A stretch of 35,293 nt of DNA from Gemmatimonadota bacterium. Lineage in GTDB: Bacteria > Gemmatimonadota > Gemmatimonadetes > Gemmatimonadales > Gemmatimonadaceae. Shown piece after piece: positions 9,574-16,927 of the stretch (position 1 is its first letter; every line of letters starts with the position of its first letter). The translations under genes were made by a program, and so were the position numbers. The stretch lies in contig JAJTFH010000003.1 of assembly GCA_021298395.1 (NCBI GenBank), positions 80,138-115,430 on the forward strand, written 5' to 3'. Under the pieces are notes generated by a model. That model saw only the letters and a list, made by a program, of their open reading frames with translations, searched no databases and was not told the origin of the DNA.

Positions 9574-9677
9574 GTCGGAACACCAGCTGGCCCGGTCAGT
9601 TATAACGGGTAGGTTGCCTCACTAGCCCCTCGTGCGTTTGCCTCATGGAACGCCTCTCTCGTGAGTAGGAACATCTC

Positions 9678-10244
9678 ATGTCGCTCTCCATCCGCGCGCT
9701 CGCCCTGACCTCCTGTTGTGCGGTGTCGCTCGTGGCGGCTCCCGCGTCTGCGCAGGTCAGTTCGAGCTTGCAGCAGGTCGCCCTGGGGGCCATCAAGGGG
9801 CAGACGGTCACCCTCGGGGCGCCGAGTCCGACCTCCCAGGGGCTCAATTTGGTCGACGGGGCCATCACCGAGTGGGCGGCCCCGTTCACCCTGACGGTGG
9901 CCTGGGACGTCACGAACTCGCCGACCACGACGGTGAAGCTCGTCGGCTATTTCCCGACACCATCGCAGGCGCTCACCTTCGGCACGTCGTATATCCCGTC
10001 CTCTTCCATCGAGGCCTCGGTCGACAACGGACTCACATGGACTCCGGTGACCTCCAATGCCGTGGGGGGGATCGGGAGTGCCGGCGGGAGTGTGGTCCTC
10101 TATACGTCGGCCCCGACCGATGGAGCGAACAAGACGGGATCGGCCGCGGTCACCTTCAAGGTGCGTCTGAACCTCACGGCGGGCCCCGCCACACTCGCGG
10201 GGATCTACGCCGGGACCTTCTACCTGATGGCGATCGCCAATTGA
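9678..10244 (+). CDS. Secreted pilin-like subunit (candidate fibre subunit)
   Basis: 188 residues from ATG 9678, preceded by AGGA at 9667-9670 (7-base spacing). Residues 1-26 form a clear Sec signal ending PASA before Gln27. The mature part (about 162 residues) has no cysteine, is rich in Thr, Ser, Gly, Val and Ala, and alternates hydrophobic and polar residues as in an all-beta immunoglobulin-like fold. The C-terminus 'AGIYAGTFYLMAIAN' resembles the final beta strand of chaperone-usher and spore-coat-U subunits, where an aG-x-Y-x-G-T-hydrophobic pattern is common. The next two genes encode a PapD-like protein and an outer-membrane barrel, so a polymerising surface subunit is the best reading. 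This is inference from pattern and context; it could be another secreted beta protein. Confidence 0.55.
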   Translation: MSLSIRALALTSCCAVSLVAAPASAQVSSSLQQVALGAIKGQTVTLGAPSPTSQGLNLVDGAITEWAAPFTLTVAWDVTNSPTTTVKLVGYFPTPSQALTFGTSYIPSSSIEASVDNGLTWTPVTSNAVGGIGSAGGSVVLYTSAPTDGANKTGSAAVTFKVRLNLTAGPATLAGIYAGTFYLMAIAN

Positions 10245-10251
10245 AGGCGCG

Positions 10252-11004
10252 ATGATCGGTCGAGCGATGCGGAGGGCCCTGCTGTGCCTCGCGCTCGCGT
10301 CGACGGCGAGTCTCGCCCAATCGGTCGATCCCCCATTCGCGGTCCATCTGGGCCGCGCACGCTCGAGCCTCCTGCTCTCGAACCCGTCGCTCCAGGCCCT
10401 CGCCTTCGTCATCGAGCCGGTCTCCTTCGACATCGCGAGCTGCGGGGACCTCGGGCTCGCCCCACTCGACACCGCCCGCATCCGACTCTCCCTCTCGTCC
10501 ATGAGCGGGCGGATCCCCGCCAAGCAGACGCGTCGGATCTTCTATGATGCGCGAGCCGACTCCCTCCCGGCCTGGTTCGCGCTCAAGATCGCCTTCGGTC
10601 CAGCGCGTCGTGACGCGGGGATCTCGATGCGCCTCGAGCTCACGCACTTCGTCTATCTCATGCAGGAGGCGCCCGTCCTCCCGCATGAGATCGACGCCAC
10701 CGAGGCCCTCTACGATCCGGTGCGCCGTCGCGTCTCCATCGGCGTGACCAACCAGAGTGACAAGTTGACCCGTCTGCACTCGGTGGGACTCGTGAACGTG
10801 GCCGACGAGGAGACCGCCGTGGAGGCCTGTCCCCTCCTCCCGAGGCATGCTCGGGAGTTCGACTTTCCGTGGTCGGAGGCGGCGCCACCCCGGACGGTCC
10901 GGTTGCACTTCCCAGGCTTCATGATCGAACGGCCCGTCCGGATCCGACCCGCGGGGCAGGACGCAGGCATCGTCCGTCGCGATTCGCTCCACTCGTCCCC
11001 CTGA
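10252..11004 (+). CDS. PapD-like periplasmic chaperone (candidate)
   Basis: 250 residues from ATG 10252, seven bases after the subunit gene; ATG 10267 is an alternative start closer to the hydrophobic core. The signal peptide runs about 6-24, ending near SLAQS. The body fits the two-domain fimbrial chaperone plan: 'SSLLLSNPSLQALAFVIEP' as the first-domain B strand, 'RIPAKQTRRIFYDARADSLPAW' in the position of the conserved Pro-Gly-x-x-x-x-hydrophobic-Arg segment, 'MRLELTHFVYLM' as a long edge strand, and 'RRVSIGVTNQSDKLTRLH' opening the second domain. Length matches the usual 230-250. In that family the chaperone donates a strand to each subunit and delivers it to the outer-membrane usher. Similarity is at the pattern level, so a profile search is needed for proof. 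Confidence 0.5.
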   Translation: MIGRAMRRALLCLALASTASLAQSVDPPFAVHLGRARSSLLLSNPSLQALAFVIEPVSFDIASCGDLGLAPLDTARIRLSLSSMSGRIPAKQTRRIFYDARADSLPAWFALKIAFGPARRDAGISMRLELTHFVYLMQEAPVLPHEIDATEALYDPVRRRVSIGVTNQSDKLTRLHSVGLVNVADEETAVEACPLLPRHAREFDFPWSEAAPPRTVRLHFPGFMIERPVRIRPAGQDAGIVRRDSLHSSP

Positions 11005-12644
11005 TGCGCGGCGCGTGGGTCGCGACGCGTCGCGTCGGCGCTCTCCTCGCGCTCCTTGCGGTCGCCTCGTCTGCCCAGGTGGTCGAGCTGCAGGGCGGGG
11101 GCTCCTCGCTCTTCGATGCCTACGGCGTCTCGGCCAACGTCTGGGGTCGGAGCTATGACGGATGGGTCGGGATCGGGTACCAGGATGGATGGCGTGTCGG
11201 TGGGCGCCTCCGACGCGCCATCCGCGGCGACACGATCCGTGCCGGCAACGATGCGCTCACCTTGCGGGCACCCACCGATCTCTTCGGTGGCGGTACCAAC
11301 GTCCTGGTCCAGGGCGCGTCGGTCATCCGCCATCGAGGCCCCACGCGCGCCCTCCTCTTCGCCGGCGCGAGCGCGACCGGGATCGGCGGCTCCTTCGCGC
11401 AGGCGCAGCGCGCCGAGCGCCCCCTCGGGGCCCTCTTCGTCGATCGCACCCTCACGCCGCAGCTGCGCGGCTCCGTGCAGGCGATCCTCGCCCGGCGGCA
11501 GAGCTTCCGTGCGGGGTTGGCCTGGACCGACTCGGCGGGGATCGAAGCCGCGGGGATGCTCGGCACCGGGGCGAATCGCCCATTCGCGAGCGCGAGTCTC
11601 CTCATGGATCGCGATCGCTGGACCCTCCGCGCCCAGTATGTGGGGGCGGCAACGGGATTTCGGCCGGCGGATCTCCCCGTCCCGCCCCAATCGCGACCCG
11701 ATGGGCTCAACGTGCAGCTCACCCTCCGGCCGATCGAATCGCTGACGCTCACCCTCGCACGACAGGGCTTCGCACAGGATTCGATCATCGGACGGTGGCG
11801 CTCCCGCGCCATCGGGACCTCCGCCAGTGCGGCGCTCGTGCGCGGACGGTCCCAACTCTCGGCGGGGGCGAACCGCTCCGACTTCGGGGATCAGCGCACC
11901 CAGAGCGCCTTCCTCGCCGCTGGCCATGCCATCGGTGACGCCTTCGCCGCGAATCTCTATGTGCTGCATGCGAGACCCGTCGATCTCCCGGCGACCACCA
12001 CGCCCGCGTTGGTGCTGCAGGAGCGACTCTCGGAGCGCTATGCCTTGACCCAACTCTTCTCCTGGAGCGCCGGCCGGCTCAGCACCTCCCTCGGCGGCAC
12101 CTATCGCGGGGAGACCATGGACCTCGGGGTGGGCTATGGGTTCGTGCATGCCCCCCTCGATCCCGCGCAGCCCTTCCAGCGGACCCTGAACCTCTCCATC
12201 CGGCTCCAGCTCGGGAACTACCGCGCGGCGGTCGCGACGACGCTCACGCCCTCCGGCGCCGTGGTGTACGACGCCTCGGCGGCGACCTTCCTCTATCTGG
12301 GGGGGGAGAATGGGCTGTTCGCGACCCCGATCGCCGCCCCGCTCACGCGCTATGTGGTGCAGGGGATCGTGCGCGATGACCGCGGGGCCCCCCTCTCCGG
12401 TGCCGCGCTCCTGATCGGGGGGGAGCTGGTCTTCTCCGATAGCCGGGGGCGGTTCTTCGCCCGCTTCCGCTCCACACGGCAGGTGCGGATCACGGTGTTG
12501 CTCGAGGAGTTCCTCGTGTCGGGGCGCTTCCGGGTAGAGCTGGTGCCGGCGATCGTGCGGCCGCAGCTCGAGGGGCAGGCGAGCGAGCTCACCGTCGTGG
12601 TGCGCCGCGAGGACCGGAACGACGAAGGCGCCGCCACCCGGTAG
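11004..12644 (+). CDS. Outer-membrane beta-barrel with C-terminal beta-sandwich, usher-like (candidate)
   Basis: 546 residues from ATG 11004, which overlaps the chaperone stop (TGATG) and is followed by a signal peptide ending near SSAQ; the frame is open upstream but coupling and the signal fix this start. From about residue 30 to 450 there are many short amphipathic strands with alternating aromatic/hydrophobic and polar residues and Gly/Ser/Asp turns, as in an outer-membrane barrel. From about 453 ('YVVQGIVRDDRGAPLSGAAL') a separate domain resembles carboxypeptidase-regulatory/usher C-terminal beta domains, with the G-x-x-D-x-x-G-x-PL-x-GA and 'SDSRGRFFARF' pattern. True ushers are 750-870 residues, so this would be a short, divergent form. 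An unrelated porin or autotransport barrel is the alternative. The stop codon lies in the loop of a hairpin shared with rpsT. Confidence 0.55.
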   Translation: MRGAWVATRRVGALLALLAVASSAQVVELQGGGSSLFDAYGVSANVWGRSYDGWVGIGYQDGWRVGGRLRRAIRGDTIRAGNDALTLRAPTDLFGGGTNVLVQGASVIRHRGPTRALLFAGASATGIGGSFAQAQRAERPLGALFVDRTLTPQLRGSVQAILARRQSFRAGLAWTDSAGIEAAGMLGTGANRPFASASLLMDRDRWTLRAQYVGAATGFRPADLPVPPQSRPDGLNVQLTLRPIESLTLTLARQGFAQDSIIGRWRSRAIGTSASAALVRGRSQLSAGANRSDFGDQRTQSAFLAAGHAIGDAFAANLYVLHARPVDLPATTTPALVLQERLSERYALTQLFSWSAGRLSTSLGGTYRGETMDLGVGYGFVHAPLDPAQPFQRTLNLSIRLQLGNYRAAVATTLTPSGAVVYDASAATFLYLGGENGLFATPIAAPLTRYVVQGIVRDDRGAPLSGAALLIGGELVFSDSRGRFFARFRSTRQVRITVLLEEFLVSGRFRVELVPAIVRPQLEGQASELTVVVRREDRNDEGAATR

Positions 12645-12657
12645 GGCAGCGGCGCCT
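12626..12657. terminator. Shared hairpin between the convergent barrel gene and rpsT
   Basis: Perfect inverted repeat AGGCGCCGC 12626-12634 and GCGGCGCCT 12649-12657. The 14-base loop holds a further CCC/GGG pairing and the TAG stop of the barrel gene. It lies 20 bases beyond the rpsT stop. No T-run is seen on either side; termination in both directions is inferred from its place. Confidence 0.6.
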
Positions 12658-12676
12658 CAGGCACGGGGGAGCCGAC

Positions 12677-12910
12677 TTACTTGGCTTTCGCGATCGACGA
12701 CTTCTGGCGCGCGGCGTTGTTGCGGTGGACGAGCCCCTTCCGCGCGGCGCGGTCGAGGAGCTGCGTCGCCTTGCGCTTCGCCGCCGGGGTCGCGGCTGGG
12801 TCCTTCGCCAGCTTCAGGGCGGTCCGCAGCGCGGCCCGCTGCGACCGGTTGCGTGCGGTCGCCGCCTTGGTCTTGCGCATGTTCTTCTTCGCGGACGCGA
12901 TTCTCGGCAC
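12677..12910 (-). CDS. rpsT: Small ribosomal subunit protein bS20
   Basis: 77 residues starting with GTG at 12910 ('PRIASAKKNMRK'), preceded by GGAG at suitable spacing. The frame is open 24 codons further, but that segment is unlike S20 and lies in the leader. The protein is very rich in Lys, Arg and Ala and matches the S20 pattern: SAKK near the start, 'RNRSQRAALRTALK' and 'AARKGLVHRNNAARQKS' at the end. S20 binds 16S rRNA early in 30S assembly. It is a little shorter than the usual 86 or so. A promoter with TTGACG and TAGGCT lies upstream, leaving a leader of about 50 bases, where S20 in other bacteria regulates its own translation. Confidence 0.93.
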   Translation of the reverse strand: MPRIASAKKNMRKTKAATARNRSQRAALRTALKLAKDPAATPAAKRKATQLLDRAARKGLVHRNNAARQKSSIAKAK

Positions 12911-12966
12911 GGACGTTCTCTCCAAAGGGAAGTTCGCGGCACCGACCTTCGGCGCCGTAGCCCTGA

Positions 12967-12995
12967 AGCCTATGCTCGGCAAGGGGTTACGTCAA
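12967..12995 (-). promoter_or_regulatory. Promoter of rpsT
   Basis: On the minus strand, -35 TTGACG (12995-12990), a 17-base spacer, and -10 TAGGCT (12972-12967). It stands back to back with the scpA promoter, the two -35 boxes 14 bases apart. Confidence 0.7.
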
Positions 12996-13009
12996 GGCCG
13001 CGGAGCGCT

Positions 13010-13038
13010 TTGACTCTGCTGCGGGAGGGGTCTACCTT
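13010..13038 (+). promoter_or_regulatory. Promoter of scpA, giving a probable leaderless transcript
   Basis: -35 TTGACT 13010-13015, a 17-base spacer, and -10 TACCTT 13033-13038. The GTG start of scpA is at 13045, where the transcript itself is expected to begin. No Shine-Dalgarno sequence could fit. Confidence 0.6.
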
Positions 13039-13044
13039 CCCGCG

Positions 13045-13779
13045 GTGACCGCACCTGCGCTGGCGCCCCTCGAGGGCGCGTTCGTCGTCGACATCGAGGG
13101 GTTCAACGGCCCGCTCGACCTCCTCCTCTCGCTGATCCGCGACGAGCAGCTCGACGTCTACGATATCCCGGTCGCCCGCGTCTGTCAGCAGTTCGTCGAC
13201 CGCATGCACGCGCTCAAGTTGAACGAGGCCGCCGAGTATCTGGAGATGGCGGCGCGGCTCATCCGCATCAAGGCGCAGATGCTCCTCCCGCGGAAGGAGG
13301 GCGATGACGGGTGGGAGGATCCGCGCGCGGAGCTCGTACGGCGTCTCCTCGAGTATCAGCAGATGCGCGAGGTGGTCGATGTGCTCGAGCGACTCGGCGA
13401 CGATCGACGCAACCGTTTCGGGCGGACCTTCCTGCAACAGGCCGCGGCGCCGCCACCGGCCCCCCTCGCCCTCTCCCTCGCTGACCTCCTCATCGCGGTC
13501 GATCGGGTGCTCCGGACGGCTAACCGCCCGATGGTGCACGAGGTGGTGCCGCGCGCGATCGATGTGGATGGCGCGATCGGGGTGGTGCGTGCGGTGCTCG
13601 CGCTGCGTGAACAGGCGCGCTGGCGCGATGTGGTGCGCGCCGACGCCGAACCGTGGGAGGTCCTCTCGGGCCTCCTCGCCCTCCTTGAGCTCGCGAAACG
13701 GAGCGAGCTCTCCCTGACCCAACTCCGGCCATTCGCCGACGTGGAGATCCGCCGTGAACTCGCTGGCCAAGCTGCTTGA
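13045..13779 (+). CDS. scpA: Segregation and condensation protein A
   Basis: 244 residues from GTG 13045. The N-terminal kleisin motif 'FNGPLDLLLSLIRDEQLDVYDI' region (residues about 17-38) is the ScpA signature, followed by 'YLEMAARLIRIKAQMLLPR' near 72-90. The C-terminal winged-helix part ends at 'DVEIRRELAG'. ScpA is the kleisin that bridges the two heads of an SMC dimer and, with ScpB, forms the condensin that organises and separates chromosomes. Its 3' end overlaps scpB by 26 bases. It is the first gene of the long run that continues to coaX. The predicted promoter places the start codon at the transcript 5' end. Confidence 0.95.
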   Translation: MTAPALAPLEGAFVVDIEGFNGPLDLLLSLIRDEQLDVYDIPVARVCQQFVDRMHALKLNEAAEYLEMAARLIRIKAQMLLPRKEGDDGWEDPRAELVRRLLEYQQMREVVDVLERLGDDRRNRFGRTFLQQAAAPPPAPLALSLADLLIAVDRVLRTANRPMVHEVVPRAIDVDGAIGVVRAVLALREQARWRDVVRADAEPWEVLSGLLALLELAKRSELSLTQLRPFADVEIRRELAGQAA

Positions 13780-14392
13780 GGCCGCCCTCTTCGCGAGCCC
13801 TCGCCCCATCCCGGGGGAGGAGCTCGCGGCGCTCGACCCGGAATCGTCTCCCGCCGCGGTGCAGGCGGCGCTCGAGGAGCTGCGCGAGCACTACGATGTG
13901 GACGGCCATGGTGTCGCCCTCGTCGCCGTGGGCGATGGGTGGCAGATCCTGACGCGTCCCGAATACACCGAGGCGATCGAGCGCGCGCAGATGGCGGTGC
14001 GGCCGCAGCGGCTCTCCGCCGCGGCGCTCGAGACCCTGGCGATCATCGCGTATCGGCAGCCGATCGGGCGCGCCGAGATCGCGGAGATCCGTGGCGTCGA
14101 TGCCGGCGCGATCATCAAGTCGCTCCATGAGCGTGGATTGATCGATGTGGTCGGGCGCGCCGAGGGGCTGGGGCGTCCGTTGCTGTACGGAACCACGGCG
14201 ATGTTCCTCGAGCAGTTCGGCCTCCGGCATCTCGAGGAGCTCCCGCGCGTTGACGAGCTGGAGATCGCGCTCCGTCGTTCGGGGCTGCCCGCTGGCCACA
14301 CGGCGGTCGAGGTACCGACGACTGAGGCGCCCTCGGGCGAGGCGCCGGACGTCGTCGAACCAGCAGCGGCGGAGCCCGCGCCGACCCCATGA
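13754..14392 (+). CDS. scpB: Segregation and condensation protein B
   Basis: 212 residues from GTG 13754, within the last codons of scpA (26-base overlap). It shows the two winged-helix domains of ScpB: 'LLEAALFASPRPIPGEELAAL' at the N-terminus and 'LSAAALETLAIIAYRQPIGRAEIAEIRGVD' region near 92-120, the strongest family signature, then 'LLYGTTAMFLEQFGL' near 155. ScpB dimers bind ScpA and complete the SMC-ScpAB complex. The last 30 or so residues are a disordered Ala/Pro/Glu tail with no family equivalent. The stop overlaps the rluB start (ATGA). Confidence 0.95.
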   Translation: MNSLAKLLEAALFASPRPIPGEELAALDPESSPAAVQAALEELREHYDVDGHGVALVAVGDGWQILTRPEYTEAIERAQMAVRPQRLSAAALETLAIIAYRQPIGRAEIAEIRGVDAGAIIKSLHERGLIDVVGRAEGLGRPLLYGTTAMFLEQFGLRHLEELPRVDELEIALRRSGLPAGHTAVEVPTTEAPSGEAPDVVEPAAAEPAPTP

Positions 14393-15135
14393 CCGACGAG
14401 GCGATGCGCATCCACCGCGCCCTCGCGCGGGCGGGGGTCGCATCGCGTCGGAAGGCGGAGGAGTTGGTCGCGGCAGGGCGCGTGAAGATCAATGACGTGG
14501 TCGCGAAGACGGGGCAGTCGGTCGATCCCGCGCGCGATGCGATCACCGTCGACGGGCGCCGCATCGTGATGCCCAAGGCGACCACGTGGATCGTCCTGCA
14601 TAAGCCGGCGGGGGTGCTGACCACCGCGCACGACCCCGAGGGGCGTCGCACCGTCTTCGATCTCATCCCGCCGCAACCGGGCCTCACCTATGTCGGACGT
14701 CTCGATTACATGACGGAGGGCGTCCTCCTCCTCACCACCGATGGCGAGGCGGCGCATCGCCTGACGCATCCGAGTGCCGGCGTGGAGCGCACCTATGTGG
14801 CGACGGTGCGCGGGCCGGTGAAGGCCGCGGCGGCCGAGCTCCGCGCCGGGGTCGCGCTCGAGGATGGTCCCGTCCATCCGGAGCAGGTCGAGGTCGCCGA
14901 AGGGGAGCAGAGTCGCACCTGGGAGCTCACGCTCACCATCCGCGAAGGGCGGCATCGCGAGGTGCGGCGGCTCTGCGAGGCGGTGGGGCTCGAGGTGCTG
15001 CGCCTCGTCCGTACCGCCTTCGGTCCGGTGAAGCTCGGCGGGCTCGCCTCGGGCGCGGTGCGCACGCTGACGGCGAAGGAACTGGCGGTGCTCGACGCGA
15101 TCGGGCCGACGGGGGCCACGGGAGCGCGGCGGTGA
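14389..15135 (+). CDS. rluB: RluB/RsuA-family rRNA pseudouridine synthase
   Basis: 248 residues; the ATG overlaps the scpB stop (ATGA). An N-terminal S4 RNA-binding domain (residues about 6-55, 'IHRALARAGVASRRKAEELV') precedes the pseudouridine synthase domain. The catalytic motif 'GRLDYMTEGVLLLT' carries the nucleophilic Asp106; 'REGRHREVRRLCEAVG' is the second family motif. Members of this group modify 23S rRNA (RluB, U2605) or 16S rRNA (RsuA, U516). The scpA-scpB-rluB order is widely conserved and favours RluB. A short Gly/Ala/Arg tail ends the protein, and the stop overlaps mutL. Confidence 0.9.
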   Translation: MTDEAMRIHRALARAGVASRRKAEELVAAGRVKINDVVAKTGQSVDPARDAITVDGRRIVMPKATTWIVLHKPAGVLTTAHDPEGRRTVFDLIPPQPGLTYVGRLDYMTEGVLLLTTDGEAAHRLTHPSAGVERTYVATVRGPVKAAAAELRAGVALEDGPVHPEQVEVAEGEQSRTWELTLTIREGRHREVRRLCEAVGLEVLRLVRTAFGPVKLGGLASGAVRTLTAKELAVLDAIGPTGATGARR

Positions 15136-16916
15136 GCCCGGTGGGAAGCACCGCGCGGGCGCGCGTCGCGATCCTCCCCGCCGATGTCGCCGACCGCATC
15201 GCGGCCGGTGAGGTGGTCGAGCGCCCCGCCTCGGTGGTCAAGGAGCTCGTCGAGAACGCCCTCGATGCCGGGGCGATGGCGATCGACGTGGAGATCCGCG
15301 ATGGCGGACGCGCCCTGATCCGCGTGAGTGATGACGGGCTGGGGATGCCGGAGGAGGACGCCCGCCTCGCGATCGCCCGACATGCCACGAGCAAGATCCG
15401 CGACGCCGAGGATCTCGTCGGCGTCGGGAGCTTCGGCTTTCGCGGCGAGGCGCTCCCCGCGATCGGATCGGTGTCCCATCTGCGGATCGAGACCGCGACC
15501 GAGGATGGGGCCGGCGTCGCCGTGGCGGTCTCCGGCGGCACCCTCGTCGGCGTCACACCCATCGCGCGGCGACGGGGCACCACCGTCTCGGTCGAGGCGC
15601 TCTTCTACAACACGCCGGCGCGTCAGAAGTTCTTGCGCGGCGCGCGCAGCGAGTGGCGCGCGATCGTCGAGCTGATGGGGACGCTGGCGCTCGTTCGCCG
15701 CGACGTGCGCTTTCGTCTGGTCCATGATGGGAAGGAGCAGTGGCAGCTCCCTGCGGCCGCCTCGCTGCGGGCGCGGCTCGGTCCGCTCTGGGGCGGGGAG
15801 GTGGCGGAGCGCCTCGTCGCGGTCGATGACGTGCAGGGGGTGATCCATGTGGCGGGGCTCATCGAGCGCCCCACCGATGTCGGATCGACGAGCCGGCAGG
15901 TGCTCGTCCTCGTGAACGGCCGTGCGGTACGCGATGTGGGAATCGTTCGCGCGGCGGAGGCGGCGTACAAGTCGACGATCCCCGCGGGGACGCGTCCGAG
16001 TCTCGTCCTCGAGGTGACGCTCCCTGGCCGCGAGGTCGATGTGAACGTGCATCCGGCCAAGGCCGAGGTGCGTTTCGTCGATCGCTGGACCGTCGAGCGC
16101 GCGGTGGAACGCGCGGTCCGTCGCGCCCTCGGCACGGAGGAGGCCATCGCCTCGGTCGGCGCGATGCCGCGCCCCGAGATGCCGCAGGCGCTCTTCGGCA
16201 CCCCGCTCCCGGTGGAGGTGTTGCGGCAGGCGGTACCGAGCGCGCCAGCCCCGCTCTTCGAGCCGGAGGCGTCGTCTCCCGATGCGGCGGAGGATGGAGG
16301 CAGGCCGCCGGCGCCGACGGCTGCGCCCGCTGCCGATCCCGACCTGATCGTCCCCCCGCTGATCCAGGTCCATCGCACCTACATCGCCTTCGAGCGGGGC
16401 GATGCCCTGGTGCTCATCGATCAGCACTCGGCGCATGAGCGCGTGCTGTACGAGCGCTTCATGGGGGCGCTGGAGCGCGGGGATGCTCCCGCGCAGCGCC
16501 TGCTCTTTCCGCTGACGCTGCATCTCTCGCCGGCTGAGGCCGAGGCCTTCGAGGGGCATCGCGCGCTCTTCGCGGGGCTCGGCTTCGACGCCGAGGCCTT
16601 CGGCGGGAACAGTGTGCTCGTGCATGCGGTCCCCAACCCGCATCCGCGCTTCGACGCCGAGCGCTGCCTGCGCGAGACCTTGGCCGCGCTCACGGGGGAT
16701 CGCCTCCCGTCGACCATCGCGCGGCACGAGCGTCTCGCGGCGACGGTGGCGTGCAAGGCGGCGGTGAAGGCGGGCGATCTTCTCGCGCCGGAGGAGATGC
16801 GGGCCCTCTTCCTCGCCCTCGCGCGGACGACGCTCCCCGCGCACGATGTGCATGGCCGCGCGACGATCCTGCAGCTCACCTGGGACGAGCTCGATCGGCG
16901 CTTCGGGCGCACCTGA
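15132..16916 (+). CDS. mutL: DNA mismatch repair protein MutL
   Basis: 594 residues from GTG 15132 (GTGA overlap with rluB). The N-terminal GHKL ATPase is complete: 'ELVENALDAGA' (motif I), 'DDGLGM' (II), 'RHATSKI' and 'GFRGEAL' (III), then the transducer domain. A Pro/Ala-rich linker (about 345-405) leads to the C-terminal dimerisation domain. This contains DQHSAHERVLYE from Asp430, a close match to the endonuclease motif DQHA-x2-E-x4-E, so MutL is probably a nicking enzyme as in bacteria without MutH. 'ACKAAVKAGD' is present, but the usual C-P-H-G-R motif reads 'DVHGR' at about 572-576, so one cysteine zinc ligand is replaced by Asp or missing. It nicks the new strand after MutS finds a mismatch. 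Confidence 0.95.
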   Translation: MSPVGSTARARVAILPADVADRIAAGEVVERPASVVKELVENALDAGAMAIDVEIRDGGRALIRVSDDGLGMPEEDARLAIARHATSKIRDAEDLVGVGSFGFRGEALPAIGSVSHLRIETATEDGAGVAVAVSGGTLVGVTPIARRRGTTVSVEALFYNTPARQKFLRGARSEWRAIVELMGTLALVRRDVRFRLVHDGKEQWQLPAAASLRARLGPLWGGEVAERLVAVDDVQGVIHVAGLIERPTDVGSTSRQVLVLVNGRAVRDVGIVRAAEAAYKSTIPAGTRPSLVLEVTLPGREVDVNVHPAKAEVRFVDRWTVERAVERAVRRALGTEEAIASVGAMPRPEMPQALFGTPLPVEVLRQAVPSAPAPLFEPEASSPDAAEDGGRPPAPTAAPAADPDLIVPPLIQVHRTYIAFERGDALVLIDQHSAHERVLYERFMGALERGDAPAQRLLFPLTLHLSPAEAEAFEGHRALFAGLGFDAEAFGGNSVLVHAVPNPHPRFDAERCLRETLAALTGDRLPSTIARHERLAATVACKAAVKAGDLLAPEEMRALFLALARTTLPAHDVHGRATILQLTWDELDRRFGRT

Positions 16917-16927
16917 GTCCGCGCGCG

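Follow-up and report, generated by a model that had tools for sequence, protein, structure and literature searches.

The window examined here, a continuous stretch of 35,293 nucleotides from a Gemmatimonadota bacterium, carries three compactly arranged genes, designated A, B and C, in which a preliminary description recognized the parts list of a chaperone-usher pathway: a pilin-like subunit, a PapD-like chaperone and an outer membrane barrel. The ushers of E. coli K-12 are ~810-880 residues in length, whereas C possesses only 546. The locus therefore raises the question of whether the triplet is a genuine chaperone-usher-type system and, if so, whether so small a barrel could act as its usher. 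Features of the locus, and of a larger system in a related genome that proved informative, are collected in Table 1.

Table 1. Features of the A-B-C locus and of a larger system in genome G039. Positions refer to the window unless another locus is named.
Feature	Position	Strand	Basis
A, secreted beta-sandwich subunit, putative pilin, 188 aa	9678..10244	+	open reading frame, alignment A6, homologue model
A signal peptide, residues 1-26	9678..9755	+	by eye; AQ-motif Q in 31/31
A N-terminal extension with alternating hydrophobics, candidate donor strand	9756..9806	+	A6 column hydrophobicity; equivalent residues disordered in L039 model
B, predicted periplasmic two-domain PapD-like chaperone, 250 aa	10252..11004	+	open reading frame; homologue model and fold matches
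B signal peptide, residues 1-23	10252..10320	+	by eye
B strand G1, residues 123-131, candidate donor strand	10618..10644	+	hydrophobicity pattern; strand position from model
C, predicted reduced usher-like outer membrane barrel protein, 546 aa	11004..12644	+	open reading frame, model, fold matches
C signal peptide, about residues 1-24	11004..11075	+	by eye
C beta-barrel, residues 25-432, ~24-26 predicted strands	11076..12299	+	model; PapC/FimD pore matches
C single C-terminal beta domain, residues 449-536, CarboxypepD_reg-like, usher CTD-like	12348..12611	+	PF13620; aligns with usher C-terminal domains
G+C hairpin overlapping C stop, without T-tract	12626..12657	+	hairpin z -2.7; terminator scan
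Larger chaperone-usher-like system: DUF4402 subunits, ~280-aa chaperone-like and ~860-aa usher-like proteins	L012 (G039:C83) 11798-16919	minus	

The three genes share the plus strand, with a gap of 7 bases between A and B and a TGATG overlap between B and C, precisely as had been described. The N-termini of all three products resemble signal peptides when judged by eye, which agrees with the earlier assignment. Although antisense open reading frames also are present, the frames of A, B and C are real as they are under purifying selection relative to G004, the closest relative within the same genus: dN/dS values were 0.22, 0.27 and 0.14, respectively, compared to 0.10 for the housekeeping gene scpA. 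The neighboring genes have housekeeping functions and encode a Clp-type ATPase, pyrB, pyrC, a zinc-ribbon protein, rpsT, scpA, a pseudouridine synthase and mutL. The triplet had been considered a closed unit that ends at a shared terminator hairpin. The terminator did not withstand scrutiny: a G+C hairpin overlaps the stop codon of C, but is devoid of a T-tract, and a terminator scan found none. Closure of the unit instead is upheld by the convergent orientation of rpsT and by conserved synteny. The hairpin persists in genome G013 after loss of the genes, and may serve the convergent rpsT transcript.

Homologues of A and B from locus L039 were modeled jointly in one frame with the intervening stop codon read as a residue, a modeling device that makes no claim of read-through. 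The folded parts of both proteins were predicted with pLDDT values mostly >85, but the pTM of 0.46 signifies that the interface between A and B is not confident. The B homologue is predicted to adopt the tandem immunoglobulin-like, two-domain fold of PapD. The top Foldseek matches were chaperones of alternative and archaic pili, including CfaA (E 3.4e-8) and CsuC (E 4.9e-8), and a second structural comparison identified CfaA as closest with a Z score of 14.2 over 195 residues that span both domains. Thus, among the CfaA/EcpB chaperones of alternative (class 5) pili and the archaic chaperone CsuC, the predicted fold of B is closest to CfaA and near to CsuC. Structure prediction decides that B is a two-domain PapD-type chaperone, in line with the preliminary description, even though direct sequence similarity to CfaA/CsuC-type chaperones is not detectable and PapD_N (PF00345) matched neither the B family nor any protein across the 14 genomes that carry the cluster under conditions in which the E. 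coli control was positive.

The G1 donor strand of CfaA presents four alternating donor residues (PMC4133393), and the same pattern is evident in B: residues 124, 126, 128 and 130 are hydrophobic in all 14 homologues, whereas residues 125, 127 and 131 are hydrophobic in none. The strand that precedes G1 bears an invariant PAWF motif. Subunit carboxylates are anchored by R8/K112 in PapD and by R89/R174/Y196 in CsuC. Residues R87, R119, R127, H132, R174 and R201 are invariant in the B family, without a reliable mapping onto the PapD/CsuC anchors; likewise, the arginines and the tyrosine that serve as anchors in CsuC and EcpB (PMC4654587) are not confidently mappable onto B.

The model of C was built from 13 sequences and is of moderate confidence (pLDDT 70, pTM 0.61). 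It comprises 24-26 barrel strands, the exact count being uncertain, followed by a single C-terminal beta domain of ~90 residues. When the model was compared with the PDB using Foldseek, the first 16 matches all were FimD/PapC with E values from 6e-12 to 2e-5 and TM-scores <0.5. The PapC pore also ranked first in a second structural comparison (Z 17.7, rmsd 4.7, 314 residues), the best non-usher match yielded a Z score of 15.2 with an rmsd of 7.2, and ushers occupied the first 10 VIA places. Thus, the 24-strand translocation pore of FimD/PapC, which also is followed by C-terminal beta domains, is the best match to the C barrel among all solved structures. Structure prediction strongly favors an usher-like barrel for C, and the earlier proposal of an usher barrel with a C-terminal domain is borne out: no porin family outranks the ushers among the matches of the model.

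Ushers as described use their N-terminal domain for recruitment and the plug as a gate, and the chaperone-subunit complex is held by two C-terminal domains. The first predicted strand of C directly follows the signal peptide, and none of the 13 C sequences has a domain-size insertion between barrel strands. The N-terminal domain therefore is absent and there is no loop sufficiently long to form a plug. The second C-terminal domain (CTD2) also is missing: the one C-terminal domain present matches PF13620 (CarboxypepD_reg) in 13 of 13 members and aligns with usher C-terminal domains in profile comparisons. Known ushers, including FimD and PapC, are composed of five domains (PMC8410936) in contrast to the two of C, and the characterization of C as a minimal barrel accordingly was accurate. 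Strictly judged, C does not qualify as a five-domain usher, and no A, B or C protein belongs to the curated Pfam families of chaperone-usher pathways; Usher PF00577 matched neither C nor any protein across the 14 genomes, whereas the E. coli control was positive. In one relative, G039, the C homologue (L012 6832-8946, minus strand) carries at its C-terminus a fused OmpA domain of the peptidoglycan-binding type (PF00691, E 2e-22), by which the barrel would be tethered to the cell wall.

The evidence for A is of a different kind. The model of the L039 homologue is all-beta with pLDDT values mostly >85 and a disordered tail at the mature N-terminus. In the family alignment A6, which includes 33 members, hydrophobic and polar columns alternate along this tail as expected of a donor strand. 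One of the 33 proteins showed a weak match to SCPU, the spore-coat U domain of archaic pilins (E 0.006). The fold matches obtained with the joint model all fell on B and none was attributable to A, and the interface with B is not confident; A therefore is best described as a putative pilin.

Searches of Pfam, NCBIfam, PHROGs and PDB sequences, with both single sequences and profiles, returned no family for A or B and nothing for C beyond the CarboxypepD_reg-like C-terminal domain. Direct profile comparisons of A, B and C with the chaperones, ushers and pilins of E. coli K-12 were not significant. An intermediate was provided by a larger chaperone-usher-like system in Gemmatimonadota. In G039, genes for DUF4402 subunits, a 282-aa protein and an 860-aa protein are located directly upstream of an A-A-A-B-C cluster. 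The ~860-aa protein contains SdrD_B and CarboxypepD_reg domains and, unlike C, is of full usher size: alignment with E. coli ushers indicates that it has two C-terminal domains as well as an N-terminal and a plug-like region. C aligned with this family across the second half of the barrel and the first C-terminal domain (E 7e-6, score 56; 15 block-shuffled controls scored ≤35 and reversed controls ≤16), and the 860-aa family in turn aligned with E. coli ushers over 591 columns (E 5e-7). Similarly, B aligned with the 282-aa chaperone-like family over 215 columns (E 4e-4), and the latter with E. coli chaperones (E 2e-6). On its own, the C barrel did not outscore the shuffled controls, its score being comparable to the best of these, and the link between C and the 860-aa family thus rests on the collinearity of barrel and C-terminal domain. 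Overall, the profile comparisons failed when made directly with classical chaperones, ushers and pilins, but connect B and C weakly to them through the larger system, which supports homology of B and C with chaperone-usher proteins at the level of sequence profiles.

The larger system is far more common in the phylum than A-B-C. Matches to the 860-aa protein were found in 56 of 200 Gemmatimonadota genomes, some to C-terminal domains only and many at full length. They included G003 and G005 from the genus of the window, but not the genome of the window itself. Among the 14 genomes with A-B-C, G039 alone has the full-length larger usher; the other 13 harbor no other full-length usher of either family, which leaves C as the only candidate pore in these genomes. 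The preliminary description had placed the triplet in a phylum without well-described chaperone-usher pili. A-B-C proved to be chaperone-usher-like as envisaged, but a larger and more common system of this type is present alongside. Among open-licence articles in PMC, two name both chaperone-usher systems and Gemmatimonadota, one of them only in passing and the other, to judge by its title, a metatranscriptome of the root microbiome. This literature provided no description of chaperone-usher-type export in Gemmatimonadota, nor any mention of DUF4402, an absence that is no proof.

Relatives of the cluster were sought with C, the B profile was run on 395 Gemmatimonadota genomes, and the loci recovered then were searched with the profiles of all three proteins. 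Strong B matches were obtained in 14 of the 395 genomes, including that of the window, and in these the subunit, chaperone and usher genes form one conserved cluster. The order A-B-C is maintained in the 13 other genomes, which span six genera, in the general form A(1-4 copies)-B-(A')-C, with the genes on one strand at every locus that is not interrupted by a contig end. A phylum-wide search with C recovered full-length homologues in 13 of the same genomes; in the fourteenth, G271, the contig ends before C. Thus, full-length B and C have identical genome distributions and are inseparable wherever the contig is complete, and the three genes stay together in relatives at every complete locus. 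Flanking genes differ between lineages and descent of one large block therefore does not explain the linkage. A scan of genome contigs returned only four loci, all in Gemmatimonadales. Matches in G011 and G021 proved to be CarboxypepD-type proteins outside the family.

The copy number of A differs between lineages: the genus of the window has a single gene, family f2 has two or three, and as many as four are present in genera g38 and g40, in which a distinct copy, A', is inserted between B and C. A' (L039:1905-2525, L040:8495-9049, L041:6722-7291, L042:8781-9338 and L044:6710-7285) has a longer N-terminal region, ends in -AY or -VY instead of -TQ, and possibly is a tip or base subunit. The view of the triplet as a minimal single-subunit set consequently is valid for the genus of the window only, as relatives have two to four subunit genes, A' among them. 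A shortened A paralogue of 142 aa in L012 (9722-10147, minus strand) lacks the middle of the domain and perhaps is decaying. The cluster as a whole is dispensable: in G013, a member of the same genus as the window, the flanks are intact at 87-91% identity, but the triplet is reduced to the final 27 codons of C. The empty site at L014 7891-7968 (G013:C7), which corresponds to 9574-12644 in the window, also retains the hairpin.

Could these genes have a function other than fiber assembly? C might be a specialized porin or transporter barrel, with A and B acting as a co-transcribed secreted beta-protein and its periplasmic partner and no fiber being produced. In favor of this reading, C is without plug, N-terminal domain and CTD2 and escapes the usher Pfam profile, and large barrels from many families match the C model with Z scores of 13-15. 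Nevertheless, this explanation is unlikely given the precedence of ushers in both the Foldseek and VIA rankings and the presence of a PapD-type chaperone and one to four subunit genes beside C at every complete locus. TonB receptors, which were considered as an alternative family for C, gave no profile signal.

Alternatively, C may be an outer membrane anchor or display platform for A, which would be exported by another route with B only affording protection. G039 provides the arguments for this arrangement: its C protein bears the OmpA fusion, and the genes of a full-size usher system are situated directly upstream. However, the fusion was seen at one locus only, and the other 13 genomes have no second full-length usher of either family; a role as anchor is distinctly improbable. 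That A is secreted as single molecules, rather than as polymers, would accord with the one A gene and lack of an adhesin in the genus of the window, and with a fiber that so far is a prediction. The N-terminal tail of A, which alternates as a donor strand should, and the tandem A paralogues in relatives render this last proposal very improbable.

Instead, A-B-C probably is a minimal, divergent chaperone-usher-type system that exports a donor-strand-linked polymer of A, and the parts list originally proposed is largely supported by synteny, the PapD-type fold predicted for B and the usher-like barrel predicted for C. By analogy with known systems, A would be produced with a signal peptide and exported across the inner membrane, and B would hold the subunit in the periplasm where its G1 strand would complete the fold of A by donor-strand complementation. 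The B-A complex then would dock at the single periplasmic C-terminal domain of C, and the N-terminal extension of the next A subunit would replace the B strand by donor-strand exchange. The growing chain of A may pass through the 24-strand-class barrel of C to the surface as a fiber or coat. Against this proposal, C lacks three of the five usher domains (N-terminal domain, plug and CTD2), among them the one responsible for recruitment of chaperone-subunit complexes. There is an even chance that C is an usher unlike any described, in which a plug-less pore of the 24-strand class operates without an N-terminal domain and a single C-terminal domain recruits the chaperone-subunit complexes.

The reduced usher distinguishes A-B-C from known chaperone-usher systems. 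The findings place chaperone-usher-type export in Gemmatimonadota, a phylum for which the open-licence literature searched in PMC holds no description, and reveal that profile-based annotation misses such systems entirely. If the reduced-usher reading is correct, the two-site relay and the plug gate that are thought to be general for ushers would not be needed. A natural system that consists of a barrel and one C-terminal domain then would show which parts of the usher are essential, and a fiber exporter of only three genes could be rebuilt and tested.
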